Part shown: one piece after another, positions 7,922-15,289 of the stretch
How positions within the stretch are numbered: the first letter of the stretch is position 1
Layout: every line of letters begins with the position of its first letter
Assembly (NCBI GenBank): GCA_017640785.1
Contig: JAEPPZ010000005.1
Span: 1-64,000, forward strand
Source of the DNA: Balneola sp.
Lineage (GTDB): Bacteria; Bacteroidota; Rhodothermia; Balneolales; Balneolaceae
Length of the DNA stretch: 64,000 nucleotides
Reading direction: 5' to 3'
Position numbers and translations under genes: made by a program
Notes under the pieces: generated by a model
Seen by the model: the letters and a program-made list of their open reading frames with translations, nothing else
What the model was told of the DNA's origin: nothing
Database searches by the model: none

Positions 7922-9178
7922 ATGGGAATGGACAAGAAAATTGAAAAGAAAAAGTGGACGCCTAAAAGGATTGGTCTAATTGTTATCGTTTTAGCCTTCA
8001 TTGGATTTACTATCTACAGCTTTGCTTATATGGATTTCAGATCCACTCTCAATGTTGAAAAAGAGAAGCTGACTATTTCTACTGTTGCTGAAAATTCGTT
8101 TCAGGAGTTTATTCAGGTCTCGGGAACTGTTCAACCAATTCGTACCATTTTTCTGGATGCACTGGAAGGCGGTGTGATCAAATCCGTTAATCTGGAATCC
8201 GGAACCAATGTAGAAAGAGGTGACACCATCGCTGTTTTAACAAATTCCTCTCTCCAACTAAGCGTACTTCAACAGGAAGCAAGTCTTTATGATCAGATCA
8301 ACAACGTCAGAAATTCCCGTTTGAATCTGGAGCAAAACAATCTTCGGTTGAAAGAACAATTGATCAGTGTAGAAAATCAATTGAACCTTGCTAAGCCTGA
8401 ATTTGAAAGACAAAAATCTTTGTATGAGAAAAGCCTCACTTCGGAACAAGAATTTCAACAGGCTAAAGAAAATTATGAGTATCAGAAGAAGAGATATGAA
8501 ATAAGCTCCGAGTCCTTTAAACGTGATTCAGTTCAAACAAGATCACAACTAAGACAACTTGATGAATCTGAAAAACGAATGTTCAGAAGTCTGGATGGAG
8601 TTCAGGCTATACTTGAAAATCTGATCGTGACCGCTCCTATTAAAGGGCAACTTACCACTGTTGAATTACAACAAGGTCAATCAATTAACAGAGGCGAAAG
8701 AATTGGACAGGTCGACATTTTAGATAATTATAAGATCAGAGTTGGTGTGGATGAATTTCATTTGTCCAGAATTACTACCGGTCTGGAAGGCTCTTTCAAT
8801 TTTGCCGGCCAAACCCATGAATTGGTTATTACGAAAGTTTATCCGGTTATCAATAATGGCCAATTTCAGGTTGATATGGAATTTGTGAATGAGGCGCCGT
8901 CCGGATTAAGAAGAGGTCAAACTGCAAGAATCCGTCTCGAACTTGGAGAATCCTCAAATGCTTTGCTTCTCCCAAGAGGCGGTTTTTATCAAACCTCGGG
9001 AGGAAATTGGGTCTTTAAATTGAATGAGGATGGCACTCAGGCAGTGAAGCAAAATATTCGCTTGGGTCGTCTTAACCCTGAGTATTACGAAGTGTTGTCG
9101 GGATTAGAATCGGGCGATGAAGTAATTACATCAAGCTATGATACTTTTGGAGATAATGAGGTTTTGGAATTGAATTAA
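7922..9178 (+). CDS. Efflux periplasmic adaptor, MacA/HlyD family
   Basis: The 418-residue adaptor has a basic N-terminus, a single membrane anchor (about 17-36), a biotinyl-lipoyl-like hairpin domain, a long coiled-coil (about 115-210, Gln/Glu/Leu rich) and a beta-barrel/membrane-proximal C-terminal half. Such proteins link an inner-membrane ABC transporter to an outer-membrane exit duct. It is the first gene of the ABC locus, directly after the sigma-54-like promoter. Normally it would be followed closely by the ATPase gene; here 517 bp carrying an inserted four-helix-bundle gene intervene. An alternative ATG lies 6 nt downstream. Confidence 0.9.
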   Translation: MGMDKKIEKKKWTPKRIGLIVIVLAFIGFTIYSFAYMDFRSTLNVEKEKLTISTVAENSFQEFIQVSGTVQPIRTIFLDALEGGVIKSVNLESGTNVERGDTIAVLTNSSLQLSVLQQEASLYDQINNVRNSRLNLEQNNLRLKEQLISVENQLNLAKPEFERQKSLYEKSLTSEQEFQQAKENYEYQKKRYEISSESFKRDSVQTRSQLRQLDESEKRMFRSLDGVQAILENLIVTAPIKGQLTTVELQQGQSINRGERIGQVDILDNYKIRVGVDEFHLSRITTGLEGSFNFAGQTHELVITKVYPVINNGQFQVDMEFVNEAPSGLRRGQTARIRLELGESSNALLLPRGGFYQTSGGNWVFKLNEDGTQAVKQNIRLGRLNPEYYEVLSGLESGDEVITSSYDTFGDNEVLELN

Positions 9179-9614
9179 CAGCTATTAGCTGACAGCATTT
9201 AGCTGTTAGTTCTTTGTACTTGTTGATGAAGCGAAGTTAACATCTTCATTACTTCATCAACAGAAACAGATAGTTCTTTACACATTTTGTTTGAAATATA
9301 GTTTAAGTCTCTGGCCAGAATTATTTGATATCTCAATTCTGATGCAGAGCCTAATGAAATATTTAAAAAATGAGCCATTTGAGATTGACTGGTTCGTCCG
9401 CATCCCTCAGCAATGTTTGTTGGGATAGAAGATGAAGACCTTCGAATTTGGCTTGTTAGCCCGTAAATCTCTGATCTTGGAAAATCGGAGGTAAGCTCAT
9501 AGACAGATAACGTTAACTCATGGCTTTTTTGCCATACTAAAAGACTTTTAAAATCACGCGTAAGAATAATATTTACTTGGTTACTAAAAGCTGTTAGCTG
9601 TCCGCTAATAGCTG
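9179..9614. mobile_element. Inverted-repeat-bounded element carrying a four-helix-bundle gene
   Basis: The segment starts at the base after the adaptor stop codon and is bounded by 18-bp inverted repeats, CAGCTATTAGCTGACAGC (9179-9196) and its near-complement (9597-9614), matching at 17 of 18 positions. The inner flanks also carry AGCTGTTAG motifs. The only gene inside is the opposite-strand four-helix-bundle gene. It separates adaptor and ATPase genes that are normally contiguous, so it looks inserted. I see no transposase and no convincing target duplication. Confidence 0.6.
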
Positions 9615-9681
9615 ACTGCTTTAACCAAGTAAGACACACTAAACCAAATTCCTTACAAAAATTTAAACAAATACTTAACAC
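9199..9681 (-). CDS. Four-helix-bundle protein (S23/IVS-encoded family)
   Basis: Residues about 42-160 match the four-helix-bundle family found in 23S rRNA intervening sequences and as the Avd accessory protein of diversity-generating retroelements: DFKSLLVWQKSHELTLSVYE, then SQIRRSSSSIPTNIAEG and the LGSASELRYQ helix. The function of free-standing members is unknown. The open frame begins at a GTG outside the bounding repeat; within the element itself there is no ATG, GTG or TTG before the conserved domain (ATT codons occur near residue 38). It may therefore start at a rare codon, start outside, or be decaying. The stop codon lies next to the left repeat. Confidence 0.7.
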   Translation of the reverse strand: MLSICLNFCKEFGLVCLTWLKQSAISGQLTAFSNQVNIILTRDFKSLLVWQKSHELTLSVYELTSDFPRSEIYGLTSQIRRSSSSIPTNIAEGCGRTSQSQMAHFLNISLGSASELRYQIILARDLNYISNKMCKELSVSVDEVMKMLTSLHQQVQRTNS

Positions 9682-9695
9682 AAACTAACTGAACA

Positions 9696-10385
9696 ATGAT
9701 ACAAGCAAGAAATCTAAAAAAGGTCTACTCAACAGAAGAAGTAGAAACAACCGCTTTGAACAACGTGAACATCGAGATCAAAGAAGGTGAATTCGTTGCT
9801 ATAATGGGACCATCCGGTTGTGGAAAATCCACTTTGCTGAATATTATGGGTTTATTGGATAATCCCAGTGACGGCGAATATCATTTTCTGGGACATGATG
9901 TTTCTAACAGAACGGAAAGAGAACGAGCTCAACTTCGAAAAGGAAATATTGGATTTATCTTTCAAAGCTTTAACCTGATCGACGAGCTTACCGTGTTCGA
10001 AAATGTTGAATTACCTCTTCTCTATCTGGGGATGTCTGCTGATGAACGAAAAGAAAAAGCAGAAGCTGCTTTGGAAAGAATGAGCATGATGCACCGCCGG
10101 AATCATTTTCCTCAACAATTATCCGGTGGACAGCAGCAACGTGTAGCCATTGCCCGTGCAGTAGTAGCAAATGCTAAACTGATCCTTGCCGATGAGCCTA
10201 CCGGTAATCTGGATTCCGATCACGGTAATGAAGTAATGAAAGTACTTGCAGAGCTAAATGAGCAAGGAACGACAATCGTAATGGTAACTCACTCCCCTCA
10301 TGATGCCGACTTTGCAATGCGTGTAATCCACTTGTTCGATGGACATGTAGTTACTGAAAATATGCAGGAAGGCTTCCACGTCTAA
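9696..10385 (+). CDS. ABC transporter ATP-binding protein, MacB/LolD type
   Basis: The 229-residue ATPase has Walker [10 protein letters not shown] (38-46), Q-loop [13 protein letters not shown], signature LSGGQQQR, Walker B LILADEPT with GNLDS D-loop, and the switch His in VTHSP. It belongs to the MacB/LolD/FtsE branch that drives mechanotransmission permeases rather than cytoplasm-to-outside pumping. It is followed 20 bp later by the first of four consecutive permeases. The upstream gene on this strand is the adaptor, beyond the inserted element. Confidence 0.95.
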
Positions 10386-10405
10386 AACTATTAAATGAAT
10401 CTGTC

Positions 10406-12865
10406 ATGCTTAAGAATTATATAAAAATCGCCCTTCGTAGTCTCTTTAAACAAAAGATGTACTCCTTTATCAATATTTCTGGGTTGGCTTTAGGAGTTGC
10501 TTGCTGTGCGTTGATCCTGCTCTATACAACAAATGAATGGAGTTTTGATGAATTCCACTCCAAGTCGGATCGGATATATCGTGCATGGACATTGGAAGAC
10601 TATGGCGAAGGTGATATTTATTTCAATACAGTAACGCCATTTGTATTAAAACCCACTCTTGAGCAAAGTATACCTGAAGTTGAACAAATAGCCCGACGAT
10701 ATGTATTCAATGATCTGGTTAAACGATCTGAATCTGATGAGTCTTTTTCAACTTCAATACAGGCGGTAGACCCGGAATTCTTTTCCATTTTTGATTTTGA
10801 ACTATTGAGAGGCGACTCTGAACAGCTTTTTTCAGGGCTGAATGAAGTTGTACTTACACCGGAATTGGCAAACCAATACTTCGAAGATGAAGATCCATTA
10901 CAAAAAACTCTTTTAATAATGATGGGAGGTGAATTCCAAGCATTTACTGTTACCGGGATAATAGAAGAGCCTCCAACTAATTCCAGTATTCAATACGAAT
11001 TGCTTATCCCGATGGAAAAGGCTAAGACGATTCTAAACCCAAACTCACTACTGAATTGGTACAGCGTTACTCCTGAAACTTACGTGCTTCTAAATGAACA
11101 AGCTGATTTGCCTTCTGTAAAAGCAAAATTCCCTGCGATGATGCAGCAAGCACTTGGAGAGGATTATAATGAAGGAGAATATGAAGTTGGGCTCCAGCCT
11201 ATTACTGATATTCATTTAAATACAGAATTTCCGGTTGGAATTGCATCCGTAAGTGATCCGACCTACTCCTACATTTTAGGAGCCATTGCTCTTTTAATAC
11301 TCATTATTGCATGTGTCAATTTTATGACCTTATCCATAAGCCGGTCTACTTCAAGAGCAAAAGAAGTCGGGATCAGAAAAACGATTGGTGCAGAACGGCA
11401 TCATCTTATGTACCAGTTTTGGGGAGAGGCGCTGTTAATGACTGTATTTTCAGTTGGTTTGGGTGCTCTTATTTCTGAGATTTTGCTTCCTTACTTCAAT
11501 CAACTATCCGGGACACATCTTTCACTTCAGCTAAGTATTGACAGTATTCTACTCTATTCAGGTCTGGCTATTTTCATCAGTTTAATTGCTGGTATTTATC
11601 CTGCACTTGTTCTGTCAAACTTTAAGCCAATTGAAGTACTCAAAGGCAAGCTTCAGATAAAAGGAGATAAAAGTCTTTTCAGAAAAGGAATGGTTGTATT
11701 CCAATTCACTATTTCCATTTTTCTGATCTCCTGCACTCTTATGGTCAATAAGCAGCTGGATTTCCTTCGTTCAAAAGATCTGGGCTTCCAAAAAGAACAA
11801 GTAGTGATCCTGCAGACGGATCTCAAACTTGGACCTCAAATGGGACTTTCAAGAATTACACAAGAATCTGCTCGTAAAAAGGAACTCCTTAAAAGCCAAC
11901 TCTCCGGGAATTCAAATTTTCTGGATCTGGCTTCTTCCGTTTTCACTCCTGCAGAGCAAGGCTGGATTGGAGTTGATTTTAAAGATGCTGATCAACAGAC
12001 AAGACGAATGAATATCAATTTTGTTGATGCTGATTACCTGAATATGATGGGGATTGAAGTAATAGCAGGTAGAAGTTTTTCAGATGAAATTACTTCAGAT
12101 GAGCGCAGAGCTATTATTGTAAATCAGGCGTTGGTAGATGATTATGGATGGGAAAATGCAATTGGCAAAAAACTTCCGGGAAGTAATTTTGAAGACCACG
12201 AGATCATAGGTGTAGTTGAAAACTTCAATTATCAATCCTTACGGACTGCTGTTGAACCTTTAGCTTTGTCTATCAACCCTTCTCTGCTATTAAGCGGTAT
12301 TGCAAATATTGGTTTTTTCAACTCTCCTTCACCTAGAATTTCATTAAGAATAAGTTCCGAAAACATCCCCCAAACGATCAGAGAATTGGAACAAACCTGG
12401 GCGGCTGTGTCACCCGGAGCTCCATTTGATTTTCAATTTCTGGATAATTCTATTGACAGTCAGTATCGCCAGGAAGAAAGATTGCAAAAAATAGCAATAT
12501 CAGGTTCAGCTCTTGCTATCATTATTGCTTGTCTCGGTCTTTTTGGTCTCGCTTCGCTAATGATCTCGAGAAGAGTTAAAGAGATTGGTATCCGAAAAGT
12601 TCTTGGTGCTTCTGCTGCCAGCATTACCCTTTTAGTTAATAAAGAGTTTACGATCCTGGTACTTGTATCCATTCTTTTAGCTGTACCGATGGCCTGGTAT
12701 GCTATTGGTGTTTGGCTTGATGATTTTGCTTACAAAGCTGACATGGGATTTTGGACGTATCTGTTAGCAGGTGGAATTGCAATTTCTATCTCCTGGGTTA
12801 CAATTAGCATCCAATCTATTAAAGCTGCACAGGTAAATCCGGTTAAGAGTCTTAAATCCGAATAA
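10406..12865 (+). CDS. FtsX/MacB-type ABC permease 1
   Basis: The 819-residue permease opens with the motif common to its paralogues here (MLKNYIKIALRSL), a first membrane helix (about 20-41), a large MacB-type periplasmic domain, and three FtsX helices (about 290-410). A second helix, second periplasmic domain and second FtsX triplet end at 819. The two coupling segments, EVGIRKTIGA and EIGIRKVLGA, contact the ATPase. The duplicated eight-helix architecture means one chain may form a complete permease half-pair. The substrate cannot be read from sequence; lipoprotein, peptide or antimicrobial export are known for relatives. Confidence 0.9.
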   Translation: MLKNYIKIALRSLFKQKMYSFINISGLALGVACCALILLYTTNEWSFDEFHSKSDRIYRAWTLEDYGEGDIYFNTVTPFVLKPTLEQSIPEVEQIARRYVFNDLVKRSESDESFSTSIQAVDPEFFSIFDFELLRGDSEQLFSGLNEVVLTPELANQYFEDEDPLQKTLLIMMGGEFQAFTVTGIIEEPPTNSSIQYELLIPMEKAKTILNPNSLLNWYSVTPETYVLLNEQADLPSVKAKFPAMMQQALGEDYNEGEYEVGLQPITDIHLNTEFPVGIASVSDPTYSYILGAIALLILIIACVNFMTLSISRSTSRAKEVGIRKTIGAERHHLMYQFWGEALLMTVFSVGLGALISEILLPYFNQLSGTHLSLQLSIDSILLYSGLAIFISLIAGIYPALVLSNFKPIEVLKGKLQIKGDKSLFRKGMVVFQFTISIFLISCTLMVNKQLDFLRSKDLGFQKEQVVILQTDLKLGPQMGLSRITQESARKKELLKSQLSGNSNFLDLASSVFTPAEQGWIGVDFKDADQQTRRMNINFVDADYLNMMGIEVIAGRSFSDEITSDERRAIIVNQALVDDYGWENAIGKKLPGSNFEDHEIIGVVENFNYQSLRTAVEPLALSINPSLLLSGIANIGFFNSPSPRISLRISSENIPQTIRELEQTWAAVSPGAPFDFQFLDNSIDSQYRQEERLQKIAISGSALAIIIACLGLFGLASLMISRRVKEIGIRKVLGASAASITLLVNKEFTILVLVSILLAVPMAWYAIGVWLDDFAYKADMGFWTYLLAGGIAISISWVTISIQSIKAAQVNPVKSLKSE

Positions 12866-12877
12866 GGTGAATCAATC

Positions 12878-15289
12878 ATGTTCAAAAACTATATAAAAAT
12901 TGCGTTTAGAAATCTCTTAAAGAATAAGAGCCAAACTTTCATCAATGTTGGCGGACTAACACTTGGTATCATCTGTGCTATTGTCATTTTTCTGATTATT
13001 CAGTTTGATCTCAGTTTCGATAAATGGCATGACGATTCCGATAGAATTTATCGAGTAGTTAGACACGAAACTGAATTCGGAAAAAGTGTTTACTATCGGG
13101 GAGGTCCATATCCACTTGCTGAAGCTGTCAGAAATGATGTTACCGGTATAAAGTATTCCACTTTAGTTTTTAATAACCTTGCTAACGAACCGATCATATC
13201 ATATTACGACAATGGCAATCTTGTTAAGAAGTTAAAAGAAAGTGATTTCGCTTTTGTTGATCCCGATTACTTCAACATCCTAACTTATACATGGTTATCA
13301 GGAAATCCTGAAACTGCTATTAAAAATCCAAATACTGCTGTTGTTACTCAAAGCTTTGCTATGAAGCTGTTTGGCACAACTGATGTTTTAGGTAAATCAG
13401 TAGTCTTTAATGGTGGAACAGCCGCAGATATTGAAATCACAGGCGTTGTAAAAGACATGCCTGAAAACTCCGATTTCCCTTTCACATTTATTGGTGCGAA
13501 TTCAACCATGGACAGAAATGGAGATACTGCAGAAAACCCAAGTTGGGGAAGTAACTCAAGCTCGATGCAAACTTACGTCAAGTTGGAGTCCGGCATTACC
13601 GAAGAGCAAGTTAATGAGCAACTTGAAGCACTGATCGTAAAATACAGAAGCGAGGAAGTTGCAGCTGAGTTAGATCTTTTTTTACAACCACTTTCCGAAA
13701 TTCATTTTGACAGCCGTTTCAATAATTATAATGGACGCGTTATAGAAAAGAGCATGTTGTTAGCTCTTGGCATAATTGGTCTTTTTTTACTGATTGCAGC
13801 TTGTATCAATTTCATAAATCTAAATACGGCAATAGCTGTAAGCAGATCGAAAGAAGTAGGCTTACGAAAGACCTTAGGTGGAACAAAATCTCAATTAATG
13901 CTTCACTTTTTTGGAGAAACAGCATTTATAACACTAATAGCTTTAGCTTTGGGAGTTGGCTTATCAGAGATTGTTCTTCAAAATATCTCCCCTATTTTAG
14001 GATTTTCTCCTGAGATGAACCTCTTATCTAATGTTGAATTACAACTCTTCATTGTTTCAATATTCCTGCTGGTAACTTTGATGGCTGGCTGGTATCCGGC
14101 TCAACATCTCTCCAATTTTAATCCGATAGAAGCCATACGAAACAAGATCCAGTCAAACTATGGGAAAGGTCTTACTCTAAGAAGAGGATTGATCGTTGTA
14201 CAATTTACCATTACTCAGGTACTAATTATTTGTACACTGATAATAGCTTCCCAGATAAGGTATTTTAAAAATCAGGATTTAGGTTTTGAAAAAGATGCCG
14301 TTGTTCATGTCCCCATTCAAAATGAGGATATGCCGATTCTTAATGTTTTCAAAAGCTCATTATTGAATAAAACTACTATTCAAAATGTCAGCTTCTCCAA
14401 CACCGGGACAACAAGTAACAGTGTTTGGGGTGGAAATTATATTATGATCGAAGACTCCATCAGGCACGAAAATTCAGGTCAGGTTAAATTTATCGATGAA
14501 AACTTTATTGACACCTATGGACTCACCTTGCTGGCGGGCACGAATATACAACCGTCTGATACTGTTAACGCTTATATAGTAAATCAATCATTTGCGAAAG
14601 AAGTTGGGTATGGTGACAACCTTTCCGGCTTGATCGGAAAAACAACTTCCATGTGGGGAACAGAAGCTCCGATTGTTGGAGTAGTTAAAGACTTTAATAC
14701 CCAATCTTTACATGAAGGGTTATCCCCTGTTTTATTGGCTCCCAGAAAAAGCTTCTTTCTATCTGCCATTAAAATTAACACTACCAGAACTAAAGAAGCT
14801 TTGGCTGATATTGAAAAAGCTTTTAATACAGCGTTCCCGGATCTGGTTTTTGAATATTCCTTTCTGGATGAAACGATAGAAAGCATGTATGAAGATGAAC
14901 AACGTACAGCCAAGATCATGAATGCATTTACTTTAATTGCAATCATAATTGGTTCTTTGGGACTATTCGGGCTTGTTTCTTACATGTCTACAACCAGAAC
15001 AAAAGAAATAGGTGTTCGAAAAGTATTGGGTGCAAACCTACTGGATATTCTAAAATTATTTGGAACAGAACTGGCTCTTTTAACAGGAATCTCGTTTGTG
15101 ATAGCAGCCCCTGTTTCATGGTATTTAATGAGAAACTGGCTTGAAGATTTTGCTTATAAAATAGAGCTCGGAATAGGAATCTTTCTACTCGCACTTTCGG
15201 CAATCTTATTGATATCTGTATTAACCATAGGATATAAGTCGCTCAGAGCTGCTCTTGCCAATCCGATTGAATCTCTAAAAAGCGAATAG
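12878..15289 (+). CDS. FtsX/MacB-type ABC permease 2
   Basis: The 803-residue paralogue of its neighbours starts 12 bp after permease 1 with MFKNYIKIAFRNLLKNK. It has the same duplicated layout: helix, periplasmic domain, FtsX triplet, then the set repeated. The coupling segments are EVGLRKTLGG and EIGVRKVLGA. Its periplasmic domains differ most from the siblings, suggesting a different partner or ligand while the ATPase-contacting parts stay conserved. It ends with the shared NPIESLKSE tail. It is clearly part of the same operon. Confidence 0.9.
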   Translation: MFKNYIKIAFRNLLKNKSQTFINVGGLTLGIICAIVIFLIIQFDLSFDKWHDDSDRIYRVVRHETEFGKSVYYRGGPYPLAEAVRNDVTGIKYSTLVFNNLANEPIISYYDNGNLVKKLKESDFAFVDPDYFNILTYTWLSGNPETAIKNPNTAVVTQSFAMKLFGTTDVLGKSVVFNGGTAADIEITGVVKDMPENSDFPFTFIGANSTMDRNGDTAENPSWGSNSSSMQTYVKLESGITEEQVNEQLEALIVKYRSEEVAAELDLFLQPLSEIHFDSRFNNYNGRVIEKSMLLALGIIGLFLLIAACINFINLNTAIAVSRSKEVGLRKTLGGTKSQLMLHFFGETAFITLIALALGVGLSEIVLQNISPILGFSPEMNLLSNVELQLFIVSIFLLVTLMAGWYPAQHLSNFNPIEAIRNKIQSNYGKGLTLRRGLIVVQFTITQVLIICTLIIASQIRYFKNQDLGFEKDAVVHVPIQNEDMPILNVFKSSLLNKTTIQNVSFSNTGTTSNSVWGGNYIMIEDSIRHENSGQVKFIDENFIDTYGLTLLAGTNIQPSDTVNAYIVNQSFAKEVGYGDNLSGLIGKTTSMWGTEAPIVGVVKDFNTQSLHEGLSPVLLAPRKSFFLSAIKINTTRTKEALADIEKAFNTAFPDLVFEYSFLDETIESMYEDEQRTAKIMNAFTLIAIIIGSLGLFGLVSYMSTTRTKEIGVRKVLGANLLDILKLFGTELALLTGISFVIAAPVSWYLMRNWLEDFAYKIELGIGIFLLALSAILLISVLTIGYKSLRAALANPIESLKSE

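Follow-up and report, generated by a model that had tools for sequence, protein, structure and literature searches.

A transposase-less S23 element with seven-base-repeat inverted arms in a Balneola efflux operon, and a possible route for its spread

The window analysed here is a stretch of 64,000 nucleotides from a Balneola sp. contig. It contains an efflux operon in which a 436-bp insert separates the periplasmic adaptor gene from the ATPase gene (Table 1). The left arm of the insert begins at position 9179 and directly abuts the TAA stop codon of the adaptor, with zero bases between them; the earlier note on this DNA, which placed the insert one base after the stop, was right as a coordinate. 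The terminal 18 nt (CAGCTATTAGCTGACAGC and CAGCTATTAGCGGACAGC) match in inverted orientation at 17 of 18 positions, as had been claimed, and the match extends to 32 nt on either side (9179–9210 and 9583–9614, 26/32). Local inverted alignment of the insert scores 17, compared with at most 13 in 100 shuffles, and the two ends pair with each other in the predicted fold. The right arm varies among congeners (G001, for example, has three AGCTAAT units), and its pairing with the left arm is still 25–26 of 32. The insert does not lie in a 23S rRNA helix and sits between two protein genes; an Rfam search of the window gave no match.

The only sizeable ORF of the insert belongs to the S23, or 23S rRNA intervening sequence (IVS), family. 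It matches PF05635 with 136.9 bits and TIGR02436 with 131.6 bits, both above the cut-offs, and these matches bear out the earlier reading of a sole four-helix-bundle gene on the opposite strand. The protein also matches the bAvd and DGR Avd models weakly, below their cut-offs, with 35 bits for the Avd profile NF033474. The usual ATG start codon is ACG here (codon 9559–9561) and ATG in the congeners G001, G002, and G004; the frame is open upstream of the ACG as far as a GTG at 9681. S23 has been described as a homopentamer (PMC4990558), and the PDB entries 2GSC and 2RLD, both members of the S23 family, have five chains each. The unit encodes PF05635 only, with no transposase and no Y1_Tnp (HUH) protein. 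A search of phage records for the window S23 found none.

Table 1. Coordinates of the insert, its parts, and the surrounding operon in the window
Feature	Position	Strand	Remarks
HlyD/RND-type periplasmic adaptor, host operon	7922..9178	+	Nearest named NCBIfam model DarC, under its cut-off
Insert, 436 bp	9179-9614	S23 gene on minus strand	Between adaptor and ATPase genes
Left inverted arm	9179..9210	+	Degenerate heptads CAGCTAT TAGCTGA CAGCATT TAGCTGT TAGT; 81% complementary to 9583-9614
S23 / 23S rRNA-IVS four-helix-bundle gene	9199..9561	-	Core 9232-9546
Right inverted arm	9583..9614	-	Read inward CAGCTAT TAGCGGA CAGCTAA CAGCTTT TAGT
Promoter-like motif TGTAAGGA-N14-GTCTTA, upstream of window S23	9630..9657	-	Just outside right arm
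ABC transporter ATP-binding protein, LolD/MacB/DarD-like, host operon	9696..10385	+	ORF and profile search
Two permease-like ORFs, host operon	10406-12865, 12878-15289 (10406..15289)	+	Identity judged from translation

The same point of the operon is occupied in different ways in related genomes. The congeners G001, G002, and G004 have the same S23 (98–100% amino acid identity), and the congener G007 has a different one (59%) beside an adaptor and an ATPase that are 99% identical. Other S23 genes are found there in G010, G020, and G025 (the last judged from translation), gene-less inverted sequences in G005, G018, and G028, and a tandem TGAACAT array in G012; the site is nearly empty in G003, G013, G021, and G031. 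The earlier note had proposed to look for empty sites between adaptor and ATPase; among the congeners, G003 and G005 have no S23 there. That note had described the insert as a unit of the protein family found in rRNA intervening sequences, inserted into the operon, a reading to be given up if no further copies existed and the arrangement were fixed in all relatives. The comparison supports an S23/IVS-family unit foreign to the operon: the site is polymorphic, with the unit present in some relatives and absent or replaced in others, and the source genome (G000) has 14 PF05635 genes, that is, 13 besides the window gene.

Three other S23 sites were compared among congeners. At the site of L013, the same point carries two S23 types (66% amino acid identity), a gene-less heptad hairpin within flanks that are 99–100% identical, or a 27-nt spacer (G006). 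In G001 and G002 (L168, L169), where this site has the second S23 type, the right half of the G007 gene-less hairpin is still present in the right flank, as though the S23 unit had inserted into the hairpin or taken its place. The L005 site shows a clean empty junction in G003, where the two genes abut; G000 is about 440 bases longer at this point. At the L011 site, the elements of G000 and G002 are 91.7% identical and both flanks 75%, and G000 and G007 have flanks that are 95–97% identical around unrelated contents. Across these sites, a congener may have the same element as the source genome, one with another S23, a hairpin of heptads without a gene, or no insert.

Most of the 14 S23 genes of the source genome lie within inverted arms of 20–40 nt, with an outer span of about 410–460 bp, and for most of the 12 elements that were measured, the distance from an arm to a flanking ORF is about 10 bases or less. 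Each arm pair has its own sequence, and what is common is the period: the arms of these 12 elements match themselves at lag 7 with a frequency of 0.516, where dinucleotide shuffles reach 0.314 (z 14.9); the z at lag 14 is 11.5. Since the arm sequence is specific to each element, the search for further copies with the same ends suggested earlier found no second full copy; the feature in common is the seven-base period. The window element has no other DNA-level match in its own genome. Near-identical paralogues, which would have served to define the ends and any target duplication, were not found, the sampled paralogues having at most about 68% DNA identity, so that recent intragenomic movement was not seen; neither a target-site duplication nor a single insertion rule was established. 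L013 and L015, whose proteins are 71% identical, have GAATATTGAACAAGGAAT heptads in common. Four different S23 elements (L003, L007, L012, L004) lie together in a stretch of about 6 kb in contig C14 (220758–226839), a cluster kept in several congeners.

Heptads also occur without S23. Gene-less intergenic clusters with a period of seven are common in the source genome (24 in 400 kb, compared with 0–6 at lags 4–11), and its arms have matches at 19 further loci in 484 kb (mean of shuffled arms 2.05, maximum 5). The gene-less hairpins were considered as clean mobile copies, a reading that was rejected: the near-identical pairs in contig C10 belong to longer duplications (152–518 bp). In the same contig, two perfect long arrays, (ACATCCA)n and (CTCACTC)n, lie less than 1 kb apart and without S23 (L124:9344–9475 and 10263–10388, that is, C10:169344–169475 and 170263–170388).

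Inverted ends made of seven-base repeats are the rule for the S23 family across many phyla. A profile search with a narrow alignment against 84,980 species genomes yielded 80 named S23 loci from Bacteroidota, candidate phyla, Acidobacteria, Planctomycetes, Verrucomicrobia, Clostridia, Proteobacteria, Nitrospirae, and others. None of the 80 contains 23S rRNA words, and the set is thus without rRNA-borne copies. Significant arms are present in 60 of the 75 usable loci, with a z of 33 at lag 7, 31 at lag 14, and at most 3.5 at every other lag; the control, comparably sized ORFs in the same DNA, has significant arms in 9 of 150. In another 33 S23 loci, most of them phylum-wide, the arm pairs are significant in 20 (lag-7 z 14.0). 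When all S23 loci are pooled, 104 of 141 have significant arms, with a best period of 7 in 78 and of 8 in 19, and 37 have none by the inverted-arm test; the median arm in this set measures 30 nt, or about four units. No paper stating a general S23-heptad rule was found in the open-licence literature.

The S23 genes of cyanobacterial plasmids have significant arms in all six cases examined. Those from Calothrix and Pseudanabaena plasmids, whose proteins share 55% and 51% identity with that of the window, have AGCTNNT heptads as in the window (p 0.001 each); the S23 of a Nostoc plasmid, also 51% identical, is without these heptads. In two cyanobacterial plasmids (L377, L380), S23 elements lie between cas6 and cas4 of two CRISPR loci, that is, between two genes of one operon.

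The similarity of the arms follows that of the protein. Among pairs from different loci, the mean excess arm score is −0.3 below 30% S23 amino acid identity, 0.45 at 50–60%, 3.3 at 60–70%, and 11.4 at 70% or more, where the arms are alike in 92% of pairs. Arm similarity and protein identity are correlated (Mantel r 0.248, with none of 1000 permutations as high). At 60–70% amino acid identity, arm identity is 0.62–0.68 (0.46–0.47 when shuffled), compared with 0.42–0.46 at third codon positions, and the arms appear to be better kept than silent sites. Since arm similarity tracks S23 identity at unrelated loci, the arms belong to the unit and not to its target, and they travel with the gene. This linkage is partly due to common descent of the unit.

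A promoter-like motif provides a further link between elements. In the window it lies outside the right arm, and the functional unit therefore probably extends past 9614. The form TGTAAGGA-N14/15-GTCTNA is found upstream of 6 of the 14 S23 genes of the source genome, which has 30 motif sites in total (L272–L301), compared with 3 for the reversed control. Beside the six S23 genes, the first genes downstream of the motif encode ComEC (PF03772, 2.5e-61), a ComEC-type MBL protein, YifB/ComM, RadC, and SSB; others encode an integron integrase (TIGR02249, 8e-130), GIY-YIG nucleases, Y1_Tnp/RAYT proteins, GxxExxY, and DUF559, and three are less clear. Across six genomes of the genus, the motif lies directly upstream and on the same strand in 27 of 71 S23 genes (about 40%), and the exact motif is absent from the remaining 60% or so. 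It is scarce upstream of S23 genes outside this bacterial family. Some elements have the motif inside their arms and others outside them, and the arms are therefore not always the outermost boundary.

The motif-bearing genes are probably a competence regulon that includes mobile genes, and gene content together with the shape of the motif suggests that it is probably read by an ECF-type sigma factor. Heptad arms were looked for on the other small motif genes and not found: GIY-YIG, RAYT, and DUF559 genes have inverted flanks of their own that are not heptads, and GxxExxY genes have none. The GIY-YIG, RAYT, and DUF559 motif genes (L276, L279, L281, L299, L274) each have their own class of inverted repeat, such as GGTCATCCTGAACTTGTTTCAGGATCTT at GIY-YIG. 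The radC gene (L295) itself lies between inverted heptad repeats that belong to the GAATATTGAACAAGG family. Within the open-licence literature, no paper was found linking S23 to competence genes, and nothing usable on S23 with competence or on the GIY-YIG transformation nuclease Ssn.

These observations can be accommodated in a model to which we would give an even chance, in which the insert is a transposase-less, IVS-like element whose S23 ring binds the element's own heptad arms, works like REP/RAYT pairs, and spreads by transformation. The element would be a free-standing relative of the 23S rRNA IVSs, with an S23 gene in an inverted-repeat loop and arms of four to five degenerate seven-base units. 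The S23 ring may bind its own arms, with each subunit taking one heptad, whenever the nucleic acid of the arms is single-stranded or folded into a hairpin; a heptad architecture that co-varies with S23 across phyla makes it a predicted ligand for the protein. If the shared motif is a competence promoter, S23 would be made in competent cells, and the motif thus proposes natural transformation as the route of spread. Incoming single-stranded transforming DNA that carries the element could then be recombined or inserted into the recipient, with S23 helping entry or exchange. The logic would be that of RAYT and REP hairpins, a non-enzymatic or unrecognised protein taking the role of the HUH transposase. 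The linkage of arms and gene, together with the shared motif, offers testable leads on movement. Several results count against the model: near-identical paralogues and a target-site duplication were not found, the arms do not form the outer limit of every element, the exact motif is missing from some 60% of S23 genes in the genus and from most beyond this bacterial family, 37 of the 141 loci have no significant arms, the linkage partly reflects descent, and near-identical gene-less hairpins in the genome belong to longer duplications.

Heptads could instead arise by slippage or template switching at replication hairpins, in the manner of the short tandemly repeated repetitive (STRR) sequences, with S23 genes as passengers and the polymorphism resulting from homologous recombination and deletion. 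Polymerase slippage has been proposed for 7-nt repeats (PMC4679880), and heptad arrays and hairpins without S23, including the perfect ones, are common in the source genome. We regard this account as unlikely: across loci, the arms co-diverge with the S23 protein and show stronger conservation than third codon positions, the period is fixed at 7 (or 8) nt with unrelated units in all phyla tested, and at the L013 site the entire contents, arms included, differ between near-identical flanks. An RNA-level IVS is quite improbable as well. Here the stem would be cut by RNase III, S23 would bind the released RNA in the way that Avd associates with its reverse transcriptase and RNA, and the element would spread through reverse transcription by an enzyme acting in trans. 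This explanation draws on the Coxiella 23S rRNA IVS (PMC4990558): it matches the insert in size, at 428 nt, RNase III cuts its 28-bp terminal stem, and it contains an S23 ORF and GACAGAT heptamers. It also draws on the relationship of S23 to DGR Avd, known from the literature (PMC10053308) and seen here in profile matches. Against it, the S23 gene of the window runs antisense to the operon, the motif of S23 genes is common to DNA-uptake genes, and PF00078 reverse transcriptases are absent from the source genome and five congeners with S23 copies (six of the eight genus genomes). Their absence also disfavours retro-mobility via a reverse transcriptase of the element's own.

The insert might also be a domesticated regulatory sequence, in which the hairpin and an antisense S23 transcript tune the efflux operon. 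Its position between adaptor and ATPase, the antisense promoter-like motif, and its conservation in three close congeners are consistent with such a role, which becomes very unlikely in view of the absence of the element from G003 and G005, the many different contents found there in family members, the presence of the same type of element in unrelated operons, and the ACG start codon in this genome. Least probable of all is an ordinary inverted-repeat transposon whose transposase lies elsewhere or was lost. Inverted ends, several copies per genome, and the clean empty junction at the L005 site would be expected of it; the element ends, however, have a period in common and no sequence, and neither a target duplication nor near-identical copies were found. 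A transposon with fixed terminal inverted repeats was rejected on these grounds, the arms not being common to elements and the unit having no transposase.

Returning to the transformation model, a more ambitious form can be drawn from it. S23 proteins would be ring readers of heptad arms, one subunit per heptad, and together with their arms they would constitute a bacteria-wide class of transposase-less mobile elements, ancestral to or the same as the rRNA IVSs, expressed in competent cells and inserted via natural transformation. This general form is tentative, and we consider it possible and on balance doubtful.

IVSs and S23 have been known for more than 25 years, and their function and route of movement are still unclear (PMC4990558). 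Like the 23S rRNA IVSs of Leptospira, Coxiella, and others, the elements described here enclose a PF05635 ORF as the loop between terminal inverted repeats, at a size of 410–460 bp compared with 428 nt in Coxiella. Strain-variable GACAGAT heptamers lie beside the ORF of the Coxiella IVS, and the origin of this IVS has been called unclear (PMC4990558). Unlike rRNA IVSs, elements of the window type lie between protein genes, and have element-specific heptad arms and their own promoter-like motif. With the Avd proteins of DGRs they have in common the fold superfamily, with a weak profile match, although the locus differs from a DGR in having no reverse transcriptase, template, or variable repeat. 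The stems of degenerate 7-nt units also resemble the STRR sequences of cyanobacteria and the P6b stem of the Nostoc trnL intron, where one heptad class has been replaced by another at the same site (PMC4476775). TAACTGA heptamers have been reported in Beggiatoaceae (PMC4679880). The arms of the cyanobacterial plasmid S23 genes are STRR-like, and no description of STRR sequences bounding an S23 gene was met in the papers found; heptad arms tie the IVSs to the unexplained heptanucleotide repeats of cyanobacteria and other bacteria.

The nearest mechanistic parallel may be the REP/RAYT pairs. Like REP sequences or REPINs with their RAYTs, the S23 elements consist of a small solitary gene family with matching hairpins, gene-less hairpins are found elsewhere, and protein and hairpin co-diverge; in the source genome, RAYT-like genes even stand under the same promoter motif as S23. 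In contrast to RAYT, S23 is a four-helix bundle without a known catalytic site, and its arms are period-7 repeats, whereas REP sequences are GTAG-tagged palindromes. Since the element encodes PF05635 only and no Y1_Tnp protein, it would work like a REP/RAYT system rather than be one.
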